NCBI GenBank assembly: GCA_944323945.1
Contig: CALUUL010000001.1
Coordinates: 1-64,000, forward strand
From: Candidatus Gastranaerophilales bacterium
GTDB lineage: Bacteria; Cyanobacteriota; Vampirovibrionia; Gastranaerophilales; Gastranaerophilaceae
Length of the DNA stretch: 64,000 bases
Reading direction: 5' to 3'
The position numbers and the translations under genes were made by a program. The stretch's first letter is position 1. Each line of letters begins with the position of its first letter. The notes below the pieces were generated by a model. That model made no database searches. It saw only the letters and a list, made by a program, of their open reading frames with translations, and had not been told where the DNA came from. Below, in pieces: positions 10,853 to 49,863 of this stretch.

Positions 10853-11536
10853 ATGAAATATAAATCCAGACTTAATCAACCACATAATTTACCAGGCGTA
10901 CTTGTTTGTGTTGAAGGTATAGATGGTTCAGGTAAATCTACTCAACTTGTAATTTTACGAGATTGGTTAAAATCTAGAAAACAAGATGTTATTTTTACAG
11001 AATGGAATTCATCGGATTTAATTTCTCAAACAACAAAACTTGCAAAGAAAAAAAATCTTCTAAGTCCAAGAACATTCTCTCTATTACACGCAGTAGATTT
11101 TGCTGATAGATTGGAACAAATAATAATTCCTGCATTAAAAGCAGGGTTCATTGTTCTTGCAGACAGATATGTTTATACTGCATTCGCAAGAGATGTAGCA
11201 AGAGGTGTTGACAGAGACTGGGTTAGAAAAGTATACGGATTTGCTGTTAAACCTGATTTGACATTATATTTTAGAGTTTCTGAAGATGTATCACTTGAGA
11301 GAATATGTTCAAATCGTTCACCAAAGTTCTATGAAGCAGGTATGGATTTGAAAATAAGCAATGATCCATATGAAAGTTACAAAATTTTTCAGAGAAGAGT
11401 TAATGACGAATACAAAAAAATGATAAAAGAATATGGTCTAGTAGAAATTGATGCAAATGAAAGTATTCATAAGAAACAAGTATTTTTTAGAGAAAAGGTT
11501 CAAGAAATATTAACTAAAAAAGGAATTATATTATAA
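10853..11536 (+). CDS. Thymidylate-kinase-like protein, copy 1
   Basis: A P-loop nucleoside monophosphate kinase of the thymidylate kinase superfamily. It has Walker A EGIDGSGKST (about residues 23-32), the DR(Y/H) motif in ADRYVYTAFARD, and a C-terminal YKKMIKEYG helix. True Tmk enzymes carry a T/F-R-E-P-G-G motif after the P-loop; here the position reads FTEWNSSD, so the dTMP-binding Arg and Pro are missing and the substrate may differ. The next gene is a tandem paralogue starting one base after this stop codon. The two share FADRLEQ(I/V)IIPALKAGF and KKMIKEYG or QKMIKEYG. Binding-site quality is weak (AGAAAGAAGA). The superfamily is certain; the dTMP kinase function is doubtful. Confidence 0.8.
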   Translation: MKYKSRLNQPHNLPGVLVCVEGIDGSGKSTQLVILRDWLKSRKQDVIFTEWNSSDLISQTTKLAKKKNLLSPRTFSLLHAVDFADRLEQIIIPALKAGFIVLADRYVYTAFARDVARGVDRDWVRKVYGFAVKPDLTLYFRVSEDVSLERICSNRSPKFYEAGMDLKISNDPYESYKIFQRRVNDEYKKMIKEYGLVEIDANESIHKKQVFFREKVQEILTKKGIIL

Positions 11537-12196
11537 ATGACACAATATAAATCAAAACATGGATATGAAGGATTATTAATAGTAATAGAAGGGACGGATG
11601 GGTCTGGAAAATCGACGCAAATAGAACGCTTAAAACGCTGGATTGAAGATCAATCATATGGTGTTATGGTAAGTGAATGGAAAACATCAAAGTTTATTGC
11701 TGATGCAATAAATGATGCAAAAGACAGAAACCTATTAAATGCAACAACATTCAGTCTTCTTTATGCCGCTGATTTTGCTGATAGATTGGAACAAGTCATA
11801 ATTCCAGCGTTAAAAGCGGGTTTTGTAGTCATTTTAGACAGATATATTTATACAGCGTATGCACGGGATGTTGTAAGAGGTCATAACATAGAATGGTTAA
11901 AAAACTTATATGACTATGCACCCGAACCTGACATGGTATTTTATTTAGATGTACCTGTTGAAATCTTGTTAAAAAGAATTATAGGAACAACAGGACTTGA
12001 TTATTGGGAATCAGGTAGAGATATAGGTTTAAGCAGTGATTTTTATAAAAGTTTTCAAATATACCAAGGTAAATGTCTCGATGAATATCAAAAAATGATA
12101 AAAGAATATGGTTTTATTTCTATAGATGGAACTCTAAGCGAAAAAGAAATACATAAAAAAATAATATCAGAAGTAAAAAGTCTTTTAGAAGTTTAA
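11537..12196 (+). CDS. Thymidylate-kinase-like protein, copy 2
   Basis: Paralogue of the preceding gene with the same layout: Walker A EGTDGSGKST near residue 17, an EWKTSK segment where Tmk has TREPGG, DRYIYTAYARD, and a YQKMIKEYG helix near the C-terminus. The start codon directly abuts the upstream stop codon (TAA-ATG), so translation is coupled. The lid region (IIGTTGLDYWESGRDIGLS) matches copy 1 (NRSPKFYEAGMDLKIS) only in part. This suggests the copies have diverged in substrate or act as a heterodimer. No other tmk gene is in the window, so I cannot tell whether either copy is the housekeeping enzyme. Confidence 0.8.
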   Translation: MTQYKSKHGYEGLLIVIEGTDGSGKSTQIERLKRWIEDQSYGVMVSEWKTSKFIADAINDAKDRNLLNATTFSLLYAADFADRLEQVIIPALKAGFVVILDRYIYTAYARDVVRGHNIEWLKNLYDYAPEPDMVFYLDVPVEILLKRIIGTTGLDYWESGRDIGLSSDFYKSFQIYQGKCLDEYQKMIKEYGFISIDGTLSEKEIHKKIISEVKSLLEV

Positions 12197-12245: not shown

Positions 12246-12584
12246 ATGAAAAGAATAAATAATTCAAACTTTGAACTTTTGGAAGATATAATAAAAACAA
12301 TTGATTTCAATTACCATCCTGATAAGAACGAAAAACTTAACAATATTGGTTGTTTATGGAATGAAATTGTTGGCAATAAAATATCAAAATTGTCTAAAGT
12401 TTACGAGTTATCTACCGATAATATATTAACAATAATTTGTTCCGACTCTATTGTCGCAAATGAATTATTATTTAATAAAAATAAACTTATTGATTACATG
12501 AATAAAAAATTAGAAAAATTGGGAACTAAAATAAAAGATATTAGATTTGATTATAAGAAATGGAAAGAAATAAGCAATGAATAA
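12246..12584 (+). CDS. DUF721/DciA-like protein
   Basis: A 112-residue protein with the DUF721 pattern: an N-terminal helix, LWNEIVGNKISKLSKV (matching the family's W..IVG..I..H), a strand ending in LTIICSDSIVANELLFNK, and a final basic KIKDIRFDYKKW. DciA members load or assist the replicative helicase DnaB, which is encoded at 30419-31801 here. It appears to be translated from a leaderless mRNA. Its last 8 bp overlap the start of the prepilin-fibre gene, an odd partner for a replication protein. The match is by pattern only, so confidence is moderate. Confidence 0.65.
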   Translation: MKRINNSNFELLEDIIKTIDFNYHPDKNEKLNNIGCLWNEIVGNKISKLSKVYELSTDNILTIICSDSIVANELLFNKNKLIDYMNKKLEKLGTKIKDIRFDYKKWKEISNE

Positions 12585-14916
12585 GAAATTAAAAGGTTTT
12601 TCTCTTGCTGAATTATTAATATCTTTGTTAATTATAAGTATTGTATTATCAGCCGCAATACCTACAATAACGAGAAAGGCAGGAGCAGACAGAGAGGCAA
12701 TTTGGCGTTGGACAAATGAAGGTAACAATGCATACTTTGGTACAGGAAGCAACCAAAGTGCAATTTTAGGTTTATCAAGTACACCTAAAGCTGAAAATGG
12801 CATTGAAGATATCATGGAAGATGTAAGCATTACTGACGATGCGGTTGATGACATTACAGACCCAGATAACACTGGAACCAAAAGAGCTGATATCGGTGTA
12901 ATAAACACAGGTGATTTAAAATACAGCAATTTTGGTGATAAATTCATTATCTTAAAAAAAACAATTCAAAATGATAATTCTAATTTTATGAATTCACATA
13001 TATCATTTTTTACAATGAAGAATGATGATACAGCAACAACTGCCGATATAAAATATGCTGGTCGTCTGACACTAGACCCAAGTAATGTTGCACTTGGTAT
13101 GGGGACATTACAAAATATTAGTTCAGATAATATTGGAGAAAATACTGCAGTTGGGCATTTTGCTTTATTAAGAACCGATGAAGGATACAGGAACACAGCA
13201 CTGGGTAAGAAAACACTTTCCTATAATGAAAGTGGCTCATATAATACCGCAATTGGTTATGGCGCACTTTTCGAGATGGGTAGAGAAGATAGCAGTGTTG
13301 ATGATGCTTATTATGAAAATACCGCAATAGGAGCTTTATCACAACAGCAAAGAGCTACAGGTAGATTTAATACATCAATTGGTTCACAGTCATTAAAAAG
13401 AAATACAGATGGCGATGGAAATACAGCCATAGGACGTCTTGCTTTAGGAAACCTTACCTCTGGAAGCAGCAATACCGTTATAGGAGACAAAGCCTGCAGA
13501 TATGTTCAATCTGGTAATAACAATATTTGTATAGGCGAAAATGTTAGAACAACAAATACCACAGTTGGAGCTTCAAGCGTTAGTTCTGAAGAAAATTATG
13601 GTATATTTATTGGTACTGCAACAGAAGATGATGAAACTCCGCTTATAAGTGGTCATAGCACTCTTGTATTAGGCAATGGTGGTAATTATCAGAACCCAAC
13701 CGCACACAAAGAATTTATCGCAAATGCAAGAAAAGTTGAATTTAGACCATTCAATGGTGCAAGACCAACATTTGAATTCCATTCTTATTATGGTGGAGAT
13801 TCTGCATATAATGGTTACAATCCTACGAACGGTCAAGGTGTATTTGGTAGTGCTTCATTTAATTTAAGAGATACAGGCGGTGGAAATGATTATTCTTCAG
13901 TATCTCTTGTTTTAGGTGGTCTTGGAACAAAAGCAACAGATAAAGAGTTACGTATTAATGCATATGACAGATATCATGCTAATACAACAGATAAATGGGC
14001 TGACATTACTTTCAATAATATTTTAAGATTTGATTTTCCACCTGCAATTCGTATAGATGGAACAAAAGAATATGGACTGGTAAGAATCAAAGCAATCACA
14101 CCTTCGACTGGAGGTTCTGCTACTGACACGAAGTATAATTTACTTCTTAATGATAGACTCGAAATTGGTAACGCTGATGAAGTACCATATTTAAAACTTA
14201 GTGCAACAGAAGGTCTTAGATTCGATTTTGGCTCAAATGATGATTCTTTCATAAATATTACAAAAGAAAATTCTTATATCAAACTTGTAAGTACAGACTC
14301 TAATGCAGGAAATCTATGGTTTGATTTGCAAGGTGGATTACAATTTACAACACCTGGGAAAATCACATTGGAATCAACCGGTAGTGACAATGTTATTAAA
14401 TTCGGGAAAATATATATTGATGATAATGAAATATATATTAATGATTTAAGAACATTTTCAAGTACCGGTGGTATAAAAGCTGAAATTAAAGGAATAAAAG
14501 ATGAAATTGATAACTTAAAAGCAACAATGTCCGATGAACGTAAAAAGAATATATTAAGTGATAGTACTGCAGGGCTAAAAGAAATAAATGCTTTAGAAGT
14601 TAAAAACTATACTTATAAAGATGATAAAAACAAAACTCCGCATGTTGGTGTTATAGCTCAGCAATTACAAAAGGTATTCCCAAATTCTGTAATTCAAGGC
14701 AATGATGGTTTCTTAAGGATAAAAACAGAAGAGATTTTCTATGCAATGGTTAATTCAATAAAAGAACTCTGCTCTATGATACAAGAATTAACAGCGAAAG
14801 TAACAGGACTGGATAAACGCATTACGGAACTGGAAACACAAAACAAAATGCTTCTTGAGCAGAATAAGGAATTTGAAAAACGACTTGAAAAACTTGAAAA
14901 ACGAACAAACAAATAA
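12577..14916 (+). CDS. Chimeric prepilin: type IV pilin N-terminus, YadA-head-like repeats, S74 chaperone domain
   Basis: Residues 1-35 are a class III signal: short basic leader MNKKLKG, cleavage before F, Glu at mature position 5 (FSLAE), then a long hydrophobic helix (LLISLLIISIVLSAAIPTI). Residues about 180-330 hold at least seven head-type repeats of the form N-T-A-(V/I)-G-x-x-A-L (NTAVGHFAL, NTALGKKTL, NTAIGYGAL, NTAIGALS, NTSIGSQSL, NTAIGRLAL, NTVIGDKA), as in trimeric autotransporter heads. About 350-640 is beta-rich and tail-fibre-like. From residue 652 comes an intramolecular chaperone of endosialidase (peptidase S74) domain: SDERKKNI, where Ser is the expected autocleavage residue, then HVGVIAQQLQKVFP. 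The last 50 residues are a Leu/Glu/Lys coiled coil. The protein is probably exported by the pilus or type II machinery, trimerises and self-cleaves. The start overlaps the DciA-like gene by 8 bp. Confidence 0.85.
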   Translation: MNKKLKGFSLAELLISLLIISIVLSAAIPTITRKAGADREAIWRWTNEGNNAYFGTGSNQSAILGLSSTPKAENGIEDIMEDVSITDDAVDDITDPDNTGTKRADIGVINTGDLKYSNFGDKFIILKKTIQNDNSNFMNSHISFFTMKNDDTATTADIKYAGRLTLDPSNVALGMGTLQNISSDNIGENTAVGHFALLRTDEGYRNTALGKKTLSYNESGSYNTAIGYGALFEMGREDSSVDDAYYENTAIGALSQQQRATGRFNTSIGSQSLKRNTDGDGNTAIGRLALGNLTSGSSNTVIGDKACRYVQSGNNNICIGENVRTTNTTVGASSVSSEENYGIFIGTATEDDETPLISGHSTLVLGNGGNYQNPTAHKEFIANARKVEFRPFNGARPTFEFHSYYGGDSAYNGYNPTNGQGVFGSASFNLRDTGGGNDYSSVSLVLGGLGTKATDKELRINAYDRYHANTTDKWADITFNNILRFDFPPAIRIDGTKEYGLVRIKAITPSTGGSATDTKYNLLLNDRLEIGNADEVPYLKLSATEGLRFDFGSNDDSFINITKENSYIKLVSTDSNAGNLWFDLQGGLQFTTPGKITLESTGSDNVIKFGKIYIDDNEIYINDLRTFSSTGGIKAEIKGIKDEIDNLKATMSDERKKNILSDSTAGLKEINALEVKNYTYKDDKNKTPHVGVIAQQLQKVFPNSVIQGNDGFLRIKTEEIFYAMVNSIKELCSMIQELTAKVTGLDKRITELETQNKMLLEQNKEFEKRLEKLEKRTNK

Positions 14917-40850: not shown

Positions 40851-42154
40851 TGAGACAGATTGCTTTAATAAGTCACGGTTGTGCAAAAAATTTAGTTGAC
40901 TCTGAACTTATGCTTGGAAAATTAATTCAAAACGGATATAAAATAACTCTTGATGAAACAAAAGCAGATATTGTTATAATTAACACATGTTCATTCATAA
41001 ATGATGCGGAAAAAGAATCAGTAAAATCAATATTTGATATGATAAACGCTGGCAAAAAAATAGTTATAACAGGCTGTCTGCCTCAAAAACATAAAAAAGA
41101 ATTACAAGAATTAATTCCTGAAGCTTTAGCTTTTTTAGGCACTTCAGATATAGATAAAATTGTTGATGTAATAAAAAAAATCACTAAAGACAAAAAAACA
41201 AGATATGAAGTAAATGAAAATCCTGAATATAACTACCCGGAAGATATAAAACGCCAACAAATTACAATGGGTGCAAGTTCATATATAAAAATAGCTGAAG
41301 GCTGCGACTTTAATTGTGGATACTGTATAATTCCACAATTAAGAGGACCATATAAATCAAGAAAAATAGAAAATATTGTTAAAGAAGCAAAAGAACTTGC
41401 TCAAAAAGGTGTAAATGAAATAGTTTTAATTGCTCAAGATACAACAAGTTATGGTAAAGATATATATGGAAAACCATCATTAAAAGAACTGTTAATTGAA
41501 CTAAATAAAATAGAAGAATTAAGTTGGATACGTATTATGTACACATATCCTTCATTGATAACAAATGAATTATTAGAAACAATTAACAAATTGGATAAAG
41601 TTGTTAAATATATTGATATTCCACTTCAACACGTAAGCAAAAAAATGCTTGAAGCAATGAATAGACCTGTTATTGATAATAAAAAATTAATAAAGAAAAT
41701 ACGAAAATTTATACCATCTATAGCAATAAGAACTACATTTATTGTTGGCTATCCGAGTGAAACAGAAGAAGATTTTCAAGAATTATATAATTTTATAAAA
41801 GAAATGAAAATAGATAAACTGGGGATTTTTGAATTTTCAAGAGAAAAAAATACAAAAGCTTATAAACTAAAACCTCAAATACCATTAAAAATAAAAAAAC
41901 AAAGAAAAAAACAATTAATGGAATTACAGCAGCAAGTATCAAAAGAAATAAACAATAAGCTCATTGGTAAAAAAATTGATTGCATAGTAGAAGCAATTAA
42001 TTCAGATGGAATAGTTGTAGGAAGAACATATAAAGATGCTCCTGAAGTAGATGGACTTATATTTATACAAACAAAAACTCCTGTTACACCTGGCGATATA
42101 ATCACCGCTAAAATAACAGGAGCTGTAGAATATGATTTAATTGCTACTTTCTAG
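40850..42154 (+). CDS. rimO: Ribosomal protein S12 methylthiotransferase RimO
   Basis: A radical SAM methylthiotransferase of 434 residues. The N-terminal UPF0004 domain has SHGCAKNLVDSE, NTCSFINDAEKES and the third Cys in VITGCLPQ. The radical SAM cluster motif is EGCDFNCGYCIIP, with a following RGPYKSR typical of RimO. The C-terminal TRAM domain ends in GDIITAKITGAVEYDLIA. It modifies Asp88 of S12. The 3' end overlaps the convergent protease gene by 11 bp. Confidence 0.95.
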   Translation: MRQIALISHGCAKNLVDSELMLGKLIQNGYKITLDETKADIVIINTCSFINDAEKESVKSIFDMINAGKKIVITGCLPQKHKKELQELIPEALAFLGTSDIDKIVDVIKKITKDKKTRYEVNENPEYNYPEDIKRQQITMGASSYIKIAEGCDFNCGYCIIPQLRGPYKSRKIENIVKEAKELAQKGVNEIVLIAQDTTSYGKDIYGKPSLKELLIELNKIEELSWIRIMYTYPSLITNELLETINKLDKVVKYIDIPLQHVSKKMLEAMNRPVIDNKKLIKKIRKFIPSIAIRTTFIVGYPSETEEDFQELYNFIKEMKIDKLGIFEFSREKNTKAYKLKPQIPLKIKKQRKKQLMELQQQVSKEINNKLIGKKIDCIVEAINSDGIVVGRTYKDAPEVDGLIFIQTKTPVTPGDIITAKITGAVEYDLIATF

Positions 42155-43685
42155 TAACTTTATATTTATCATTCTTAGCATTATACTTAAGAACTCTTCT
42201 ATCTCTTGTAGCTTTAGGATTACGTTTAATTAAGTTATTAATTACTTCTTTTTCCATTTTTTTATCCTTTTCGATATGATAAACTTCTGCAAGCTTTAAT
42301 GCTACTTCGATATTATCAGGATATTGATCTATCAAAATTTTCAATTTTTTCTTAGCAAGTTCTAACCTACCAAATCTAACATCTAAGAATGTTCCTAAAA
42401 TTTGAGTATCCAAATCAGATTTCAAATTTTCAGCCATTGCCAAATATTTATAAGAATTATTATAATCTCTCATCTTATAATAATTAACAGCTAAATTATA
42501 TAAAATCACATGCTGATTCTGTAAATCAGTTTCTACTAAAGGAAGAACATTGTATAAAACATAATTAGAACGAGCATATTGTTTCTTAAATGCATAATTA
42601 ATAGCTAAATCAACCCAAACAATGATATTTTTCCTGTCTTTTTGTAATTGAGCTAATAACCTTTTTGTTTCTAATTCAAAATTTTCTCCTGGATATGTTG
42701 TTATAATTTCATGATAAAACAAATTATTATACTCGTTTGGGTTTATGGGCTTATCAATTATATCAGGAACCATTTTATATAATAAATTAAGAGTATTCAT
42801 ATCTCTTTTTGTTATGTCTTTTTTAACAGTAGTTTCATCTATATAATCACCTGTATAATACATAATATCATTAGAGTTTGAACTATGACCACCAATACCA
42901 AGAGCATGACCAATTTCATGTAGAGCAACCGTATAAAATTGATCTTTATTATAATTCTGACCTTTAGAATCAACTTTTCTTAAATAAACATCCATTTTTT
43001 TAAGTTGTTCATTATTTATTCCAGGAATAACTTTACCAACTTTTGTAGGTTCATAAGTATCCTTCATAGATATATTATCCATAAAATTAACACATATATT
43101 AGCATTTTTATTCCCTGCAGTTTCCTTAAATGTAATCACACCATTTGTTGCAGCTTGCCAGTCAAAAAAAGCTTTCTTAACAGCTTCAATATTTTCTTGA
43201 GCTACACCTGAATCTGCAAAAATAGAATAGGTAATCGGAGAAGATATATTCCATCTTATTAGTGAATCTTCAAATAGTACATTGTCAATATAATTAGAAC
43301 CAACCTGAGCTTCTAATTGCTTACGCATATTCATCAATATGGTTTCTGCTAATTGACTTGCTTCATCACAATCTTCCAATTGCGCAATTGCATATAATTG
43401 CTTCTGATGATCATATGTGGGCGGCAATTTAGAAATGGCAAGTGCTTGATAATAAACAGGTTCAGAATCATATGGTTTAGCATCTGCAACCAAATCAAAC
43501 ATCATTAATGCTTTATCATATTGTCCAACCGCCATATACTTCTTGCCTTGATTAAACATTTGATCTGGCATTACATTCTTTACATAAAAATATACTCCAA
43601 GAACCAAAAGCAAAACAATTCCAAATACAATTAAAGAAGTTTTAATGCTACCGGTTTGTTTCTTGCTATCTTTATTTACCTTCAT
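42144..43685 (-). CDS. Membrane-anchored matrixin-type metalloprotease with TPR repeats
   Basis: An N-terminal membrane segment (about 18-38, LIVFGIVLLLVLGVYFYV). A short TPR-like region follows (about 40-110). The metzincin domain has the zinc motif HEIGHALGIGGHS starting at H256 and a Met-turn NDIMYY shortly after. The C-terminal ~230 residues are TPR-like helices (YNLAVNYYKMRDYNNSYKYLAMAE, VALKLAEVYHIEKD). The catalytic domain faces the periplasm if the anchor is inside-out in the usual way. It lies 14 bp after scpB and may share its transcript. Matrixin domains between TPR blocks are uncommon. Confidence 0.8.
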   Translation of the reverse strand: MKVNKDSKKQTGSIKTSLIVFGIVLLLVLGVYFYVKNVMPDQMFNQGKKYMAVGQYDKALMMFDLVADAKPYDSEPVYYQALAISKLPPTYDHQKQLYAIAQLEDCDEASQLAETILMNMRKQLEAQVGSNYIDNVLFEDSLIRWNISSPITYSIFADSGVAQENIEAVKKAFFDWQAATNGVITFKETAGNKNANICVNFMDNISMKDTYEPTKVGKVIPGINNEQLKKMDVYLRKVDSKGQNYNKDQFYTVALHEIGHALGIGGHSSNSNDIMYYTGDYIDETTVKKDITKRDMNTLNLLYKMVPDIIDKPINPNEYNNLFYHEIITTYPGENFELETKRLLAQLQKDRKNIIVWVDLAINYAFKKQYARSNYVLYNVLPLVETDLQNQHVILYNLAVNYYKMRDYNNSYKYLAMAENLKSDLDTQILGTFLDVRFGRLELAKKKLKILIDQYPDNIEVALKLAEVYHIEKDKKMEKEVINNLIKRNPKATRDRRVLKYNAKNDKYKVTRK

Positions 43686-48771: not shown

Positions 48772-49863
48772 ATGAGTAATTATACAATAAATTCACTACT
48801 AGAAAAAGCACAAGAACTTGGTGCATCAGACCTTCACTTTATCGTGGGTGAAGTCCCATCATTCCGCATAGACGGAAAAATAATAAAATCAAAGCTTGAA
48901 CCTGTAACAGAAGAAGATATGATGCGTGCTATTGATGAAATGGCACCAATTTCTATGCGTGATAAAATATTTCGCTCATATGATTCTGACTTTCCTTATG
49001 AAATAGAAGGAATATCACGTTTCAGGGTTAACCTTGCAATGTCTTTTGGATATCACTCTATGACAATACGTCTAGTTCCATATGAAATACCAACATTTGA
49101 ACAATTAAAATTACCAAAAACTATAGAAAAATTCTCGACTTTCGAAAATGGAATCGTGCTTGTAACAGGAGTAGCCGGAAGCGGTAAATCTACAACAATT
49201 GCTTCAATATTAAATCATATAAATAACACTCAGAAAAAACATATTGTTACAATTGAAGACCCGATTGAATATGTTTATAAAAGCCAAAAATCAATATTCA
49301 CACAAAGACAAATAGGAATAGATACAGCTAATTATCTTGACGGTTTAAAGTTTGCCCTAAGACAAGATCCTGATGTAATATTAATTGGTGAAATAAGAGA
49401 CATGGAAACAGTAGCGAGTGCCCTTCACGCAGCAGAAACAGGACACCTTGTATTTGCAACTTTACATACTTTTAATGCTGTACAAACAATAAACCGTATA
49501 TTAAGTTTCTTTCCACCATCCGAAAGAGCTGCTGTAAGAAGTCAATTTGCAGAAGTATTTAGAGGCTCTTTGTCGCAAAAGCTATTACCAAATGCCAATG
49601 GAAAGGGAAGAATACCTGCAGTTGAACTTTTATATTCTACTCCTACAATTAAAGATTTTATTCTGAAAGACGAACTTGAAGAAATATACAAATTAGTTCA
49701 AAAAGGTTCATATAACGATATGATAACATTTAATATTTCACTATATGATTTATACAAAAAAGGCTTAATTACAAAAGAAGCAGCACTTGAACATTCAGAT
49801 AGTCCAAACGAGCTTATGCACTATATTAGAGGTGTATATTCAGGAAGCGAAAATAATTTTTAA
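48772..49863 (+). CDS. pilT: Type IV pilus retraction ATPase
   Basis: A hexameric ATPase that depolymerises pili and drives twitching. 363 residues with the N-terminal PAS-like domain (DLHFIVGEVPSFRIDG), Walker A TGVAGSGKSTT, Asp box TIEDPIEYV, Walker B VILIGEIRDMETV and His box TGHLVFATLHT, all intact in contrast to the degenerate homologue at 3437. The C-terminal AIRNLIRE motif is not conserved in the usual form (LEEIYKLVQKGSYNDM). recO follows 5 bp later. Confidence 0.93.
   Translation: MSNYTINSLLEKAQELGASDLHFIVGEVPSFRIDGKIIKSKLEPVTEEDMMRAIDEMAPISMRDKIFRSYDSDFPYEIEGISRFRVNLAMSFGYHSMTIRLVPYEIPTFEQLKLPKTIEKFSTFENGIVLVTGVAGSGKSTTIASILNHINNTQKKHIVTIEDPIEYVYKSQKSIFTQRQIGIDTANYLDGLKFALRQDPDVILIGEIRDMETVASALHAAETGHLVFATLHTFNAVQTINRILSFFPPSERAAVRSQFAEVFRGSLSQKLLPNANGKGRIPAVELLYSTPTIKDFILKDELEEIYKLVQKGSYNDMITFNISLYDLYKKGLITKEAALEHSDSPNELMHYIRGVYSGSENNF

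Follow-up and report, generated by a model that had tools for sequence, protein, structure and literature searches.

The stretch analysed here, referred to as the window, comprises 64,000 nucleotides of a Candidatus Gastranaerophilales bacterium (contig CALUUL010000001.1, positions 1 to 64,000 of the forward strand), whose order belongs to the Cyanobacteriota/Melainabacteria group according to NCBI. It carries a gene, hereafter the fibre gene, in which a prepilin start is followed by repeats of the kind found in phage tail fibres and by a C-terminal Peptidase_S74 domain, that is, an intramolecular chaperone (Table 1). An initial annotation, made from the letters alone, had described a class III prepilin signal, at least seven N-T-A-(V/I)-G-type repeats, a beta-rich middle and an S74 domain at SDERKKNI with a coiled coil behind it, and all of these parts were found in one frame of 779 residues. 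The signal is supported by PF07963 and TIGR02532 above their cut-offs and by G7, F8 and E12 in all 70 aligned proteins, the repeats by a count of nine motif copies, the middle by the strands that an AlphaFold2 (AF2) monomer places there, and the C-terminal part by a PF13884 match and a heptad test.

Table 1. Positions in the window of the fibre gene, of its parts and of two further genes (residues are those of the 779-residue product; 70/70, identical in all aligned proteins)
Feature	Position	Strand	Evidence
Prepilin-phage fibre-S74 gene, complete	12577..14916	+	One uninterrupted frame, 779 amino acids (aa)
Prepilin leader, residues 1-7, last residue Gly7	12577..12597	+	PF07963 above cut-off; G7, F8 in 70/70
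Hydrophobic N-terminal pilin helix, residues 8-33, with E12 (mature Glu5)	12598..12675	+	AF2 helix 10-27 (low confidence); E12 in 70/70
Post-helix region, residues 34-166: invariant W43 and W45, variable acidic stretch, conserved 119-166	12676..13074	+	Regional conservation
Head, residues 167-335: 17-residue N-T-x-(V/I)-G repeats	13075..13581	+	Repeat spacing; phrog_4636; phage records
Invariant C307 and C318 in the last head repeats	13495-13497; 13528-13530	+	70/70 aligned homologues
Variable beta-rich middle, residues 336-632	13582..14472	+	Low conservation; AF2 strands
Helix preceding S74, residues 633-651	14473..14529	+	AF2 helix 633-650
Predicted self-cleavage site M651/S652	End of the 14473..14529 segment	+	Comparison with MyRF P586/S587
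Peptidase_S74 (intramolecular chaperone) domain, residues 652-716	14530..14724	+	PF13884, E 2.2e-14; MyRF ICA profile match, E 5.5e-12
S652	14530-14532	+	Ser of the Ser-Lys dyad
K657	14545-14547	+	Lys of the Ser-Lys dyad
C-terminal coiled coil, residues 717-779	14725..14913	+	Heptad test; AF2 helix 717-778
dciA-like gene	12246..12584	+	PF05258, E 3.8e-11
PilT-family pilus retraction ATPase gene, not adjacent to the fibre gene	48772..49863	+	TIGR01420, 417 bits against a cut-off of 319

The pilin end and the inheritance of the fusion

The N-terminus of the protein, MNKKLKG followed by FSLAELLISLLIISIVLSAAIPT, is a prepilin signal with a predicted prepilin-peptidase cut after G7. PF07963 (N_methyl, which we take to be the same entry as IPR012902) covers residues 3-28 with 26.8 bits against a cut-off of 21.2, and TIGR02532, the NCBIfam GFxxxE prepilin domain, scores 21.2 bits against a cut-off of 16.3. 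In the region after the pilin helix, the confidence of the AF2 model is below 50 for residues 26-57 and low up to about residue 170.

A search of public proteins gave 542 relatives among 7995 scored candidates, and the best 120 of them were listed. Their precomputed domains include PF13884 in 120/120 and PF07963 as well in 110/120. A strict prepilin pattern fits 115 of 121 sequences (these homologues and the window protein); among the six misses, P0059, P0064, P0066 and P0068 carry the motif by eye, and the records of P0060 and P0098 begin downstream. Five Candidatus Gastranaerophilales genomes (loci L001-L005) contain close relatives, with an identity of 81-85% over the best segments, and in each of these loci the order of all 15 compared window genes, the fibre gene and housekeeping genes among them, is the same as in the window. 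Because homologues carry both domains and the gene order is kept in five genomes, the fusion of prepilin, fibre and S74 is genuine and inherited. The initial annotation had named a frameshift or a misassembly joining two genes as the event that would overturn it, and this is excluded by the two-domain homologues and the kept gene order. We therefore see practically no chance that the gene is such an artefact or a phage remnant: its head and S74 parts do match phage tail fibres, but the homologues already refute this explanation, and the constant neighbourhood with its housekeeping genes speaks against it.

For the alignment, 70 of the 121 proteins were picked by hand for diversity and for the presence of both domains. 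Identical in 70/70 are G7, F8, E12, W43, W45, C307, C318, S652, D653 and K657. The two invariant cysteines might form a disulfide, either within a chain or between chains. Regional conservation, expressed as the mean frequency of the commonest letter in this alignment, is 0.84 in the pilin helix, 0.68 in the W motif behind it, 0.17 in the acidic stretch and 0.59 in residues 119-166; it is 0.47 in the head repeats, 0.34 in the middle and 0.18 in the second part of the middle; and it is 0.26 in the helix before S74, 0.85 in S74 and 0.80 in the coiled coil. Conserved ends enclose a variable middle, as fits an anchor and a chaperone that stay constant while the fibre between them changes. Between the window and L001-L005, the ratio of nonsynonymous to synonymous substitution rates (dN/dS) is 0.07-0.11 for the whole gene and near 0 in the pilin helix, with dS near saturation in some regions and not computable for the acidic stretch in two pairs.

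Head repeats and the S74 domain

The motif N-(T/I)-x-(V/I/L/C)-G is present in nine copies in the window protein, against a mean of 0.19 and a maximum of 3 in 2000 shuffles, and the spacings of the copies are 17, 17, 25, 17, 17, 17, 17 and 11 residues. Proteins of the homologue set have 5-10 repeats each, with a spacing of exactly 17 in 537 of 836 cases. Comparison with the PHROGs database gave the tail spike family phrog_4636 for the whole protein (E 2.1e-31, best stretch 170-309) and several tail fibre families for the S74 end. Moreover, translated searches matched residues 162-338 to 88 phage records and the S74-plus-coiled-coil end to 31; among the 15 matches shown for each search, many are annotated as tail fibres or tailspikes and others as hypothetical or not at all. 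Judged by its sequence, the head is a phage-type fibre. It had at first been labelled as a trimeric-autotransporter (YadA-type) head, a label that we abandon on account of the period of 17, of the relatives among phage tail fibres and of the lack of any match to YadA_head, Hep_Hag or YadA_anchor at E up to 1 in the 10 proteins scanned (among the best 25 of 30 matches for P0029 and P0110). A YadA-type autotransporter was likewise rejected as an identity for the whole protein, which in these scans matches neither the head repeats nor the C-terminal barrel anchor of that family and ends in a coiled coil. In the middle, the strands of the AF2 monomer have their best confidence at about residues 340-510, and this variable part is likely the one that would contact a ligand.

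The PF13884 match extends over residues 652-705 (53.9 bits against a cut-off of 22, E 2.2e-14) and begins exactly at SDERKKNI. Behind the domain, the best heptad register of residues 717-779 has 78% hydrophobic a/d positions, which was equalled in 0/5000 shuffles. The S652-K657 dyad is kept in all 120 best homologues, three of them by eye, and in 70/70 aligned proteins; the pattern S-D-x-(R/K)-x-K fits 117/119, and P0062, P0120 and the unanchored P0038 keep the Ser and the Lys by eye. When a profile made from 35 S74 ends of this group was compared with solved structures, the best match was the ICA domain of MyRF (E 5.5e-12), in a chain that has Ala at the Ser position, and phage fibres came next; among these, the chain of a neck appendage protein (3gud) has the counterpart of S652 as its very first residue. 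In the passages of PMC8326128 that deal with it, MyRF is cleaved at the P586/S587 bond by its Ser587-Lys592 dyad, provided that it is trimeric, and this dyad is equivalent to S911-K916 of endoNF; passages of PMC3742443 give the same dyad for MYRF and phage endosialidases. The +5 spacing from Ser to Lys in the window protein is that of the MyRF and endoNF dyads. Self-cleavage at M651/S652 is thus likely by comparison with these relatives, and it would leave a fibre of residues 8-651 and release a piece of 128 residues.

It has been proposed otherwise in the discussion of a survey of modular pilins, where the architecture is named a predicted S74 peptidase (PMC8179133), and the module might in that case be a working peptidase that acts on other proteins. 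We find this very improbable, since the dyad of the relatives studied cuts its own chain once trimerised (PMC8326128, PMC3742443, in the parts concerned) and since S74 is accompanied by repeats and a coiled coil, as in phage fibres.

Pilus machinery and the place of the fibre

Each of the five closest genomes (G001-G005) contains one S74 match and, at E up to 0.01, six prepilin signals; a seventh match in G001 (E 0.86) is below the cut-off. Above Pfam cut-offs, each of them has one secretin, PilC-type genes and one prepilin peptidase, and in locus L064 of G004 PilC-, PilB- and secretin-like genes are clustered, again above these cut-offs. At the level of protein family matches, the core of a canonical type IVa machine (PilB, PilC, secretin and prepilin peptidase) is present, with PilB coming from L064 of G004. 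From the counts per genome and the L064 cluster, it seems that about six prepilins, the S74 protein among them, share one machine. In a termite-gut relative, pilA, pilB, pilC, pilT and pilD have been reported (PMC5877343, in part).

We propose, with a probability of roughly 0.6, that the gene product is a modular minor pilin: a homotrimeric phage-type fibre at the pilus tip that cuts off its own S74 chaperone. The trimer, the cleavage, the location at the tip and the adhesion are all putative and would be linked as follows. The N-terminal helix would insert the prepilin, and the prepilin peptidase, whose gene is found in close relatives, would cut the leader after G7, as the motif suggests. 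In the periplasm, the C-terminal coiled coil and S74 would gather three chains and template the fibre, as solved S74 relatives lead one to expect. Trimerisation would set up the conserved S652-K657 dyad, and the resulting cut at M651/S652 would release the 128-residue chaperone. The fibre of residues 8-651, with three pilin helices, could then enter the pilus base as the first subunits and leave through the secretin at the tip. There, the variable middle and the head might bind a ligand, and retraction driven by PilT would pull on it.

The initial annotation had called it unexplained how a tail of one helix could be packed beneath a trimeric head, and a precedent exists in CofB and TcpB, which are homotrimeric tip minor pilins (PMC8179133, in the passages on them). 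TcpB in particular is described as a homotrimeric pilus initiation complex, with its three N-terminal domains modelled as replacing the top three subunits of the filament (PMC9565799, relevant part). Its Glu5 is needed for retraction, not for assembly (PMC5207764, relevant part), and the invariant Glu5 of the window protein is therefore compatible with a tip pilin.

A number of observations weigh against a self-cleaving trimer at the pilus tip. The fibre gene adjoins dciA and is not within a pil operon, and 70 of the 146 genomes drawn from the order have no S74 match. The AF2 monomer of the 779-residue protein has a mean predicted local distance difference test score (pLDDT) of 63.8, with values below 50 over most of S74, and a predicted template modelling score (pTM) of 0.49; the S74 fragment modelled alone as a monomer is also poor (pTM 0.36), and fold searches were uninformative, Foldseek against the PDB giving no significant match (best E 0.38). 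The dN/dS comparison of the window with L001-L005 gave no sign of diversifying selection, and the literature searched yielded no experiment that addresses cleavage or location in proteins of this kind.

Other such observations would suit a rival role, in which the prepilin helix is a mere membrane or envelope anchor and the trimeric, self-cleaved fibre remains fixed in the cytoplasmic membrane without ever becoming part of a filament. No pil gene is among the 15 window genes compared around the fibre gene, and a clear globular pilin domain was not recognised in the low-confidence AF2 monomer. PilM (PF11104) and PilN (PF05137) were found in 0/5 close genomes, against 9/14 and 2/14 controls respectively, the PilN model being a weak probe because it matched in just two of these control genomes. 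Since PilM and PilN were undetected though PilC-type, secretin and prepilin peptidase genes are present, the inner-membrane complex of the pilus looks reduced or very divergent in G001-G005. Furthermore, the machine genes are not tied to S74: in order genomes without it (G022, G029, G031, G007), a secretin is present in 4/4, a PilC-type gene in 3/4 and a prepilin peptidase in 2/4. We nevertheless judge anchoring alone to be unlikely, given that the leader Gly, Phe1 and Glu5 are invariant in 70/70, that Glu5 would be superfluous for pure anchoring, and that secretin, PilC-type and prepilin peptidase genes occur in 5/5 closest genomes and PilB in G004.

It is a little less likely again that the fibre sits on the body of the filament, or on the short pseudopilus of a secretion machine, instead of at the tip. 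PilB, PilC and the secretin of L064 are below the NCBIfam equivalog cut-offs, which also counts against the tip pilin; their best models, all below cut-off, are type_IV_pilB for PilB and, from the type II secretion system, GspF for PilC and GspD for the secretin. A location on the body is allowed given a flexible linker (PMC8179133, in part), and Glu5 is kept in the window protein, yet absent from the tip-capping subunit of conserved minor pilin complexes (PMC10191384, in part). However, a trimeric head with more than 600 residues per chain would be hard to fit along a helical filament, the TcpB and CofB trimers are placed at tips in the passages cited above, and both the PilT gene of the window and the preference of the L064 PilB for type_IV_pilB, albeit below cut-off, argue for a pilus.

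Returning to the locus, the last 8 bases of the dciA-like gene (12577-12584) are also the first 8 of the fibre gene, so that translational coupling of the two is possible. Their adjacency is kept in L001-L005 and in the distant relative L068, and in one homologue record (P0034, 959 aa) DciA and prepilin are read as one protein; in G129, the 7-kb surroundings of three S74 genes (L058-L060) have no dciA match. In the window and in L001-L005, the neighbours include, besides dciA, thymidylate kinase-like, S4 and ABC transporter genes and two genes that, from their sequences, we take to be ybaB-like and recR-like. A phage or prophage structural gene was rejected as an identity for the fibre gene, which is not among phage genes and has chromosomal neighbours in all six stretches. 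Two thymidylate kinase-like genes are in tandem (10853-12196), and each is 96-99% identical in the five relatives, compared with 81-85% for the fibre gene. Elsewhere in the window, a gene on the minus strand (42144-43685) encodes a Matrixin-type metalloprotease domain (PF00413) together with TPR-like stretches.

Of the 146 genomes drawn from the order, 76 gave S74 matches, as did 85 of 292 drawn from the phylum, with a maximum of 11 per genome (G048 and G307). In 20 stretches of eight order genomes there are 27 S74 open reading frames, 23 of them with an in-frame prepilin start; two of the remaining four are cut by the contig end, and two have a prepilin start upstream in another frame. S74 paralogues with such an out-of-frame start, in L048 and L059, are perhaps decayed or switched copies. 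The matching genomes of the phylum draw include ten of 4.5-7 Mb, a photosynthetic size; nine of them were inspected (L067, L078-L083, L085, L086; G226 left out), and their S74 proteins, judged by eye from the first Met, lack a prepilin start. The same is true of the 3-Mb genomes G169 and G016 (L076, L084). The small genomes G311, G313 and G316 have prepilin-type S74 proteins, and of the five S74 places fetched from G307, among its 11 matches, four are prepilins and one is not (L069-L075 and L077 for these four genomes). As to prepilins in general, the genomes G048 and G063, of about 2 Mb, contain at least 150 (scored, of 202 candidates) and 134 prepilin-type signals, compared with 6 in each of G001-G005; elsewhere in the order, prepilins have thus undergone a very large expansion.

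Relation to known systems

The architecture is not new in print, because an InterPro survey of prepilin domains joined to others, published in 2021, lists prepilin-S74 among the modular pilins; IPR030392 is among its 15 most frequent architectures and is read as peptidase activity (PMC8179133). The suggestion of the initial annotation that this may be a new type has to be withdrawn to that extent. These modular pilins (IPR012902-IPR030392) have the same N-terminal prepilin and S74 as the window protein, and section 9 and other passages of the survey give no repeats, trimer, self-cleavage or Gastranaerophilales for the architecture. The literature searched does not contain a reading of S74 as a trimer chaperone that removes itself from a phage-type pilus fibre.

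CofB and TcpB of type IVb pili are parallels to the proposed minor pilin: both are of large size, combine a pilin helix with beta-rich C-terminal domains and form homotrimers placed at the tip; they are defined by an H-type lectin-like last domain, by the homotrimer and by a secreted partner protein bound at the tip. YadA-type autotransporters resemble the window protein in their repeated N-x-x-x-G heads on a trimeric surface fibre. Period and barrel differ, however: YadA heads have a repeat period of about 14, whereas the period is 17 in the window protein, which lacks matches to the YadA family and to a C-terminal barrel anchor.

Phage fibres and tailspikes (endosialidases, the L-shaped tail fibre 8hqz, the neck appendage 3gud) likewise consist of a fibre with a C-terminal S74. 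EndoNF shares the +5 Ser-Lys dyad, according to the passages on it, and the 88 phage records share repeats of the 17-residue type. Phage fibres belong to virions, whereas the window protein starts with a prepilin helix and its gene has chromosomal neighbours. MYRF, the best solved match of the S74 profile, is described as a cellular, membrane-anchored trimer that is cut by its own ICA domain. Its membrane helix is C-terminal to the ICA domain, and what cleavage sets free is a DNA-binding trimer; the anchor of the window protein is N-terminal, and cleavage would therefore remove the chaperone and leave the fibre anchored.

Since a pilin helix, phage fibre repeats and a phage folding domain are joined in one gene, bacteria may have borrowed a phage gripping tool for their pili. 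We tentatively extend this to a broader picture, whose chances we put somewhat below even. In the Gastranaerophilales, a whole receptor-binding fibre of phages might have been transferred to retractile type IV pili as self-maturing tip trimers, with the shedding of the chaperone serving as a quality check by which only properly trimerised fibres pass the secretin; lineages with many S74 genes (up to 11 matches per genome) might keep exchangeable pilus grips, and in a modular-pilin architecture that is among the commonest, the 'peptidase' would be a trimer-building chaperone. If true, pili and phages would have one tool in common, namely a fibre of three chains whose chaperone folds it, cuts itself off and is discarded, and the catalogued 'peptidase' of modular pilins would have to be re-read as a module for trimerisation and quality control. 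This would open a further route to homotrimeric tip pilins beside CofB and TcpB and would suggest how the uncultured Gastranaerophilales may attach to surfaces.

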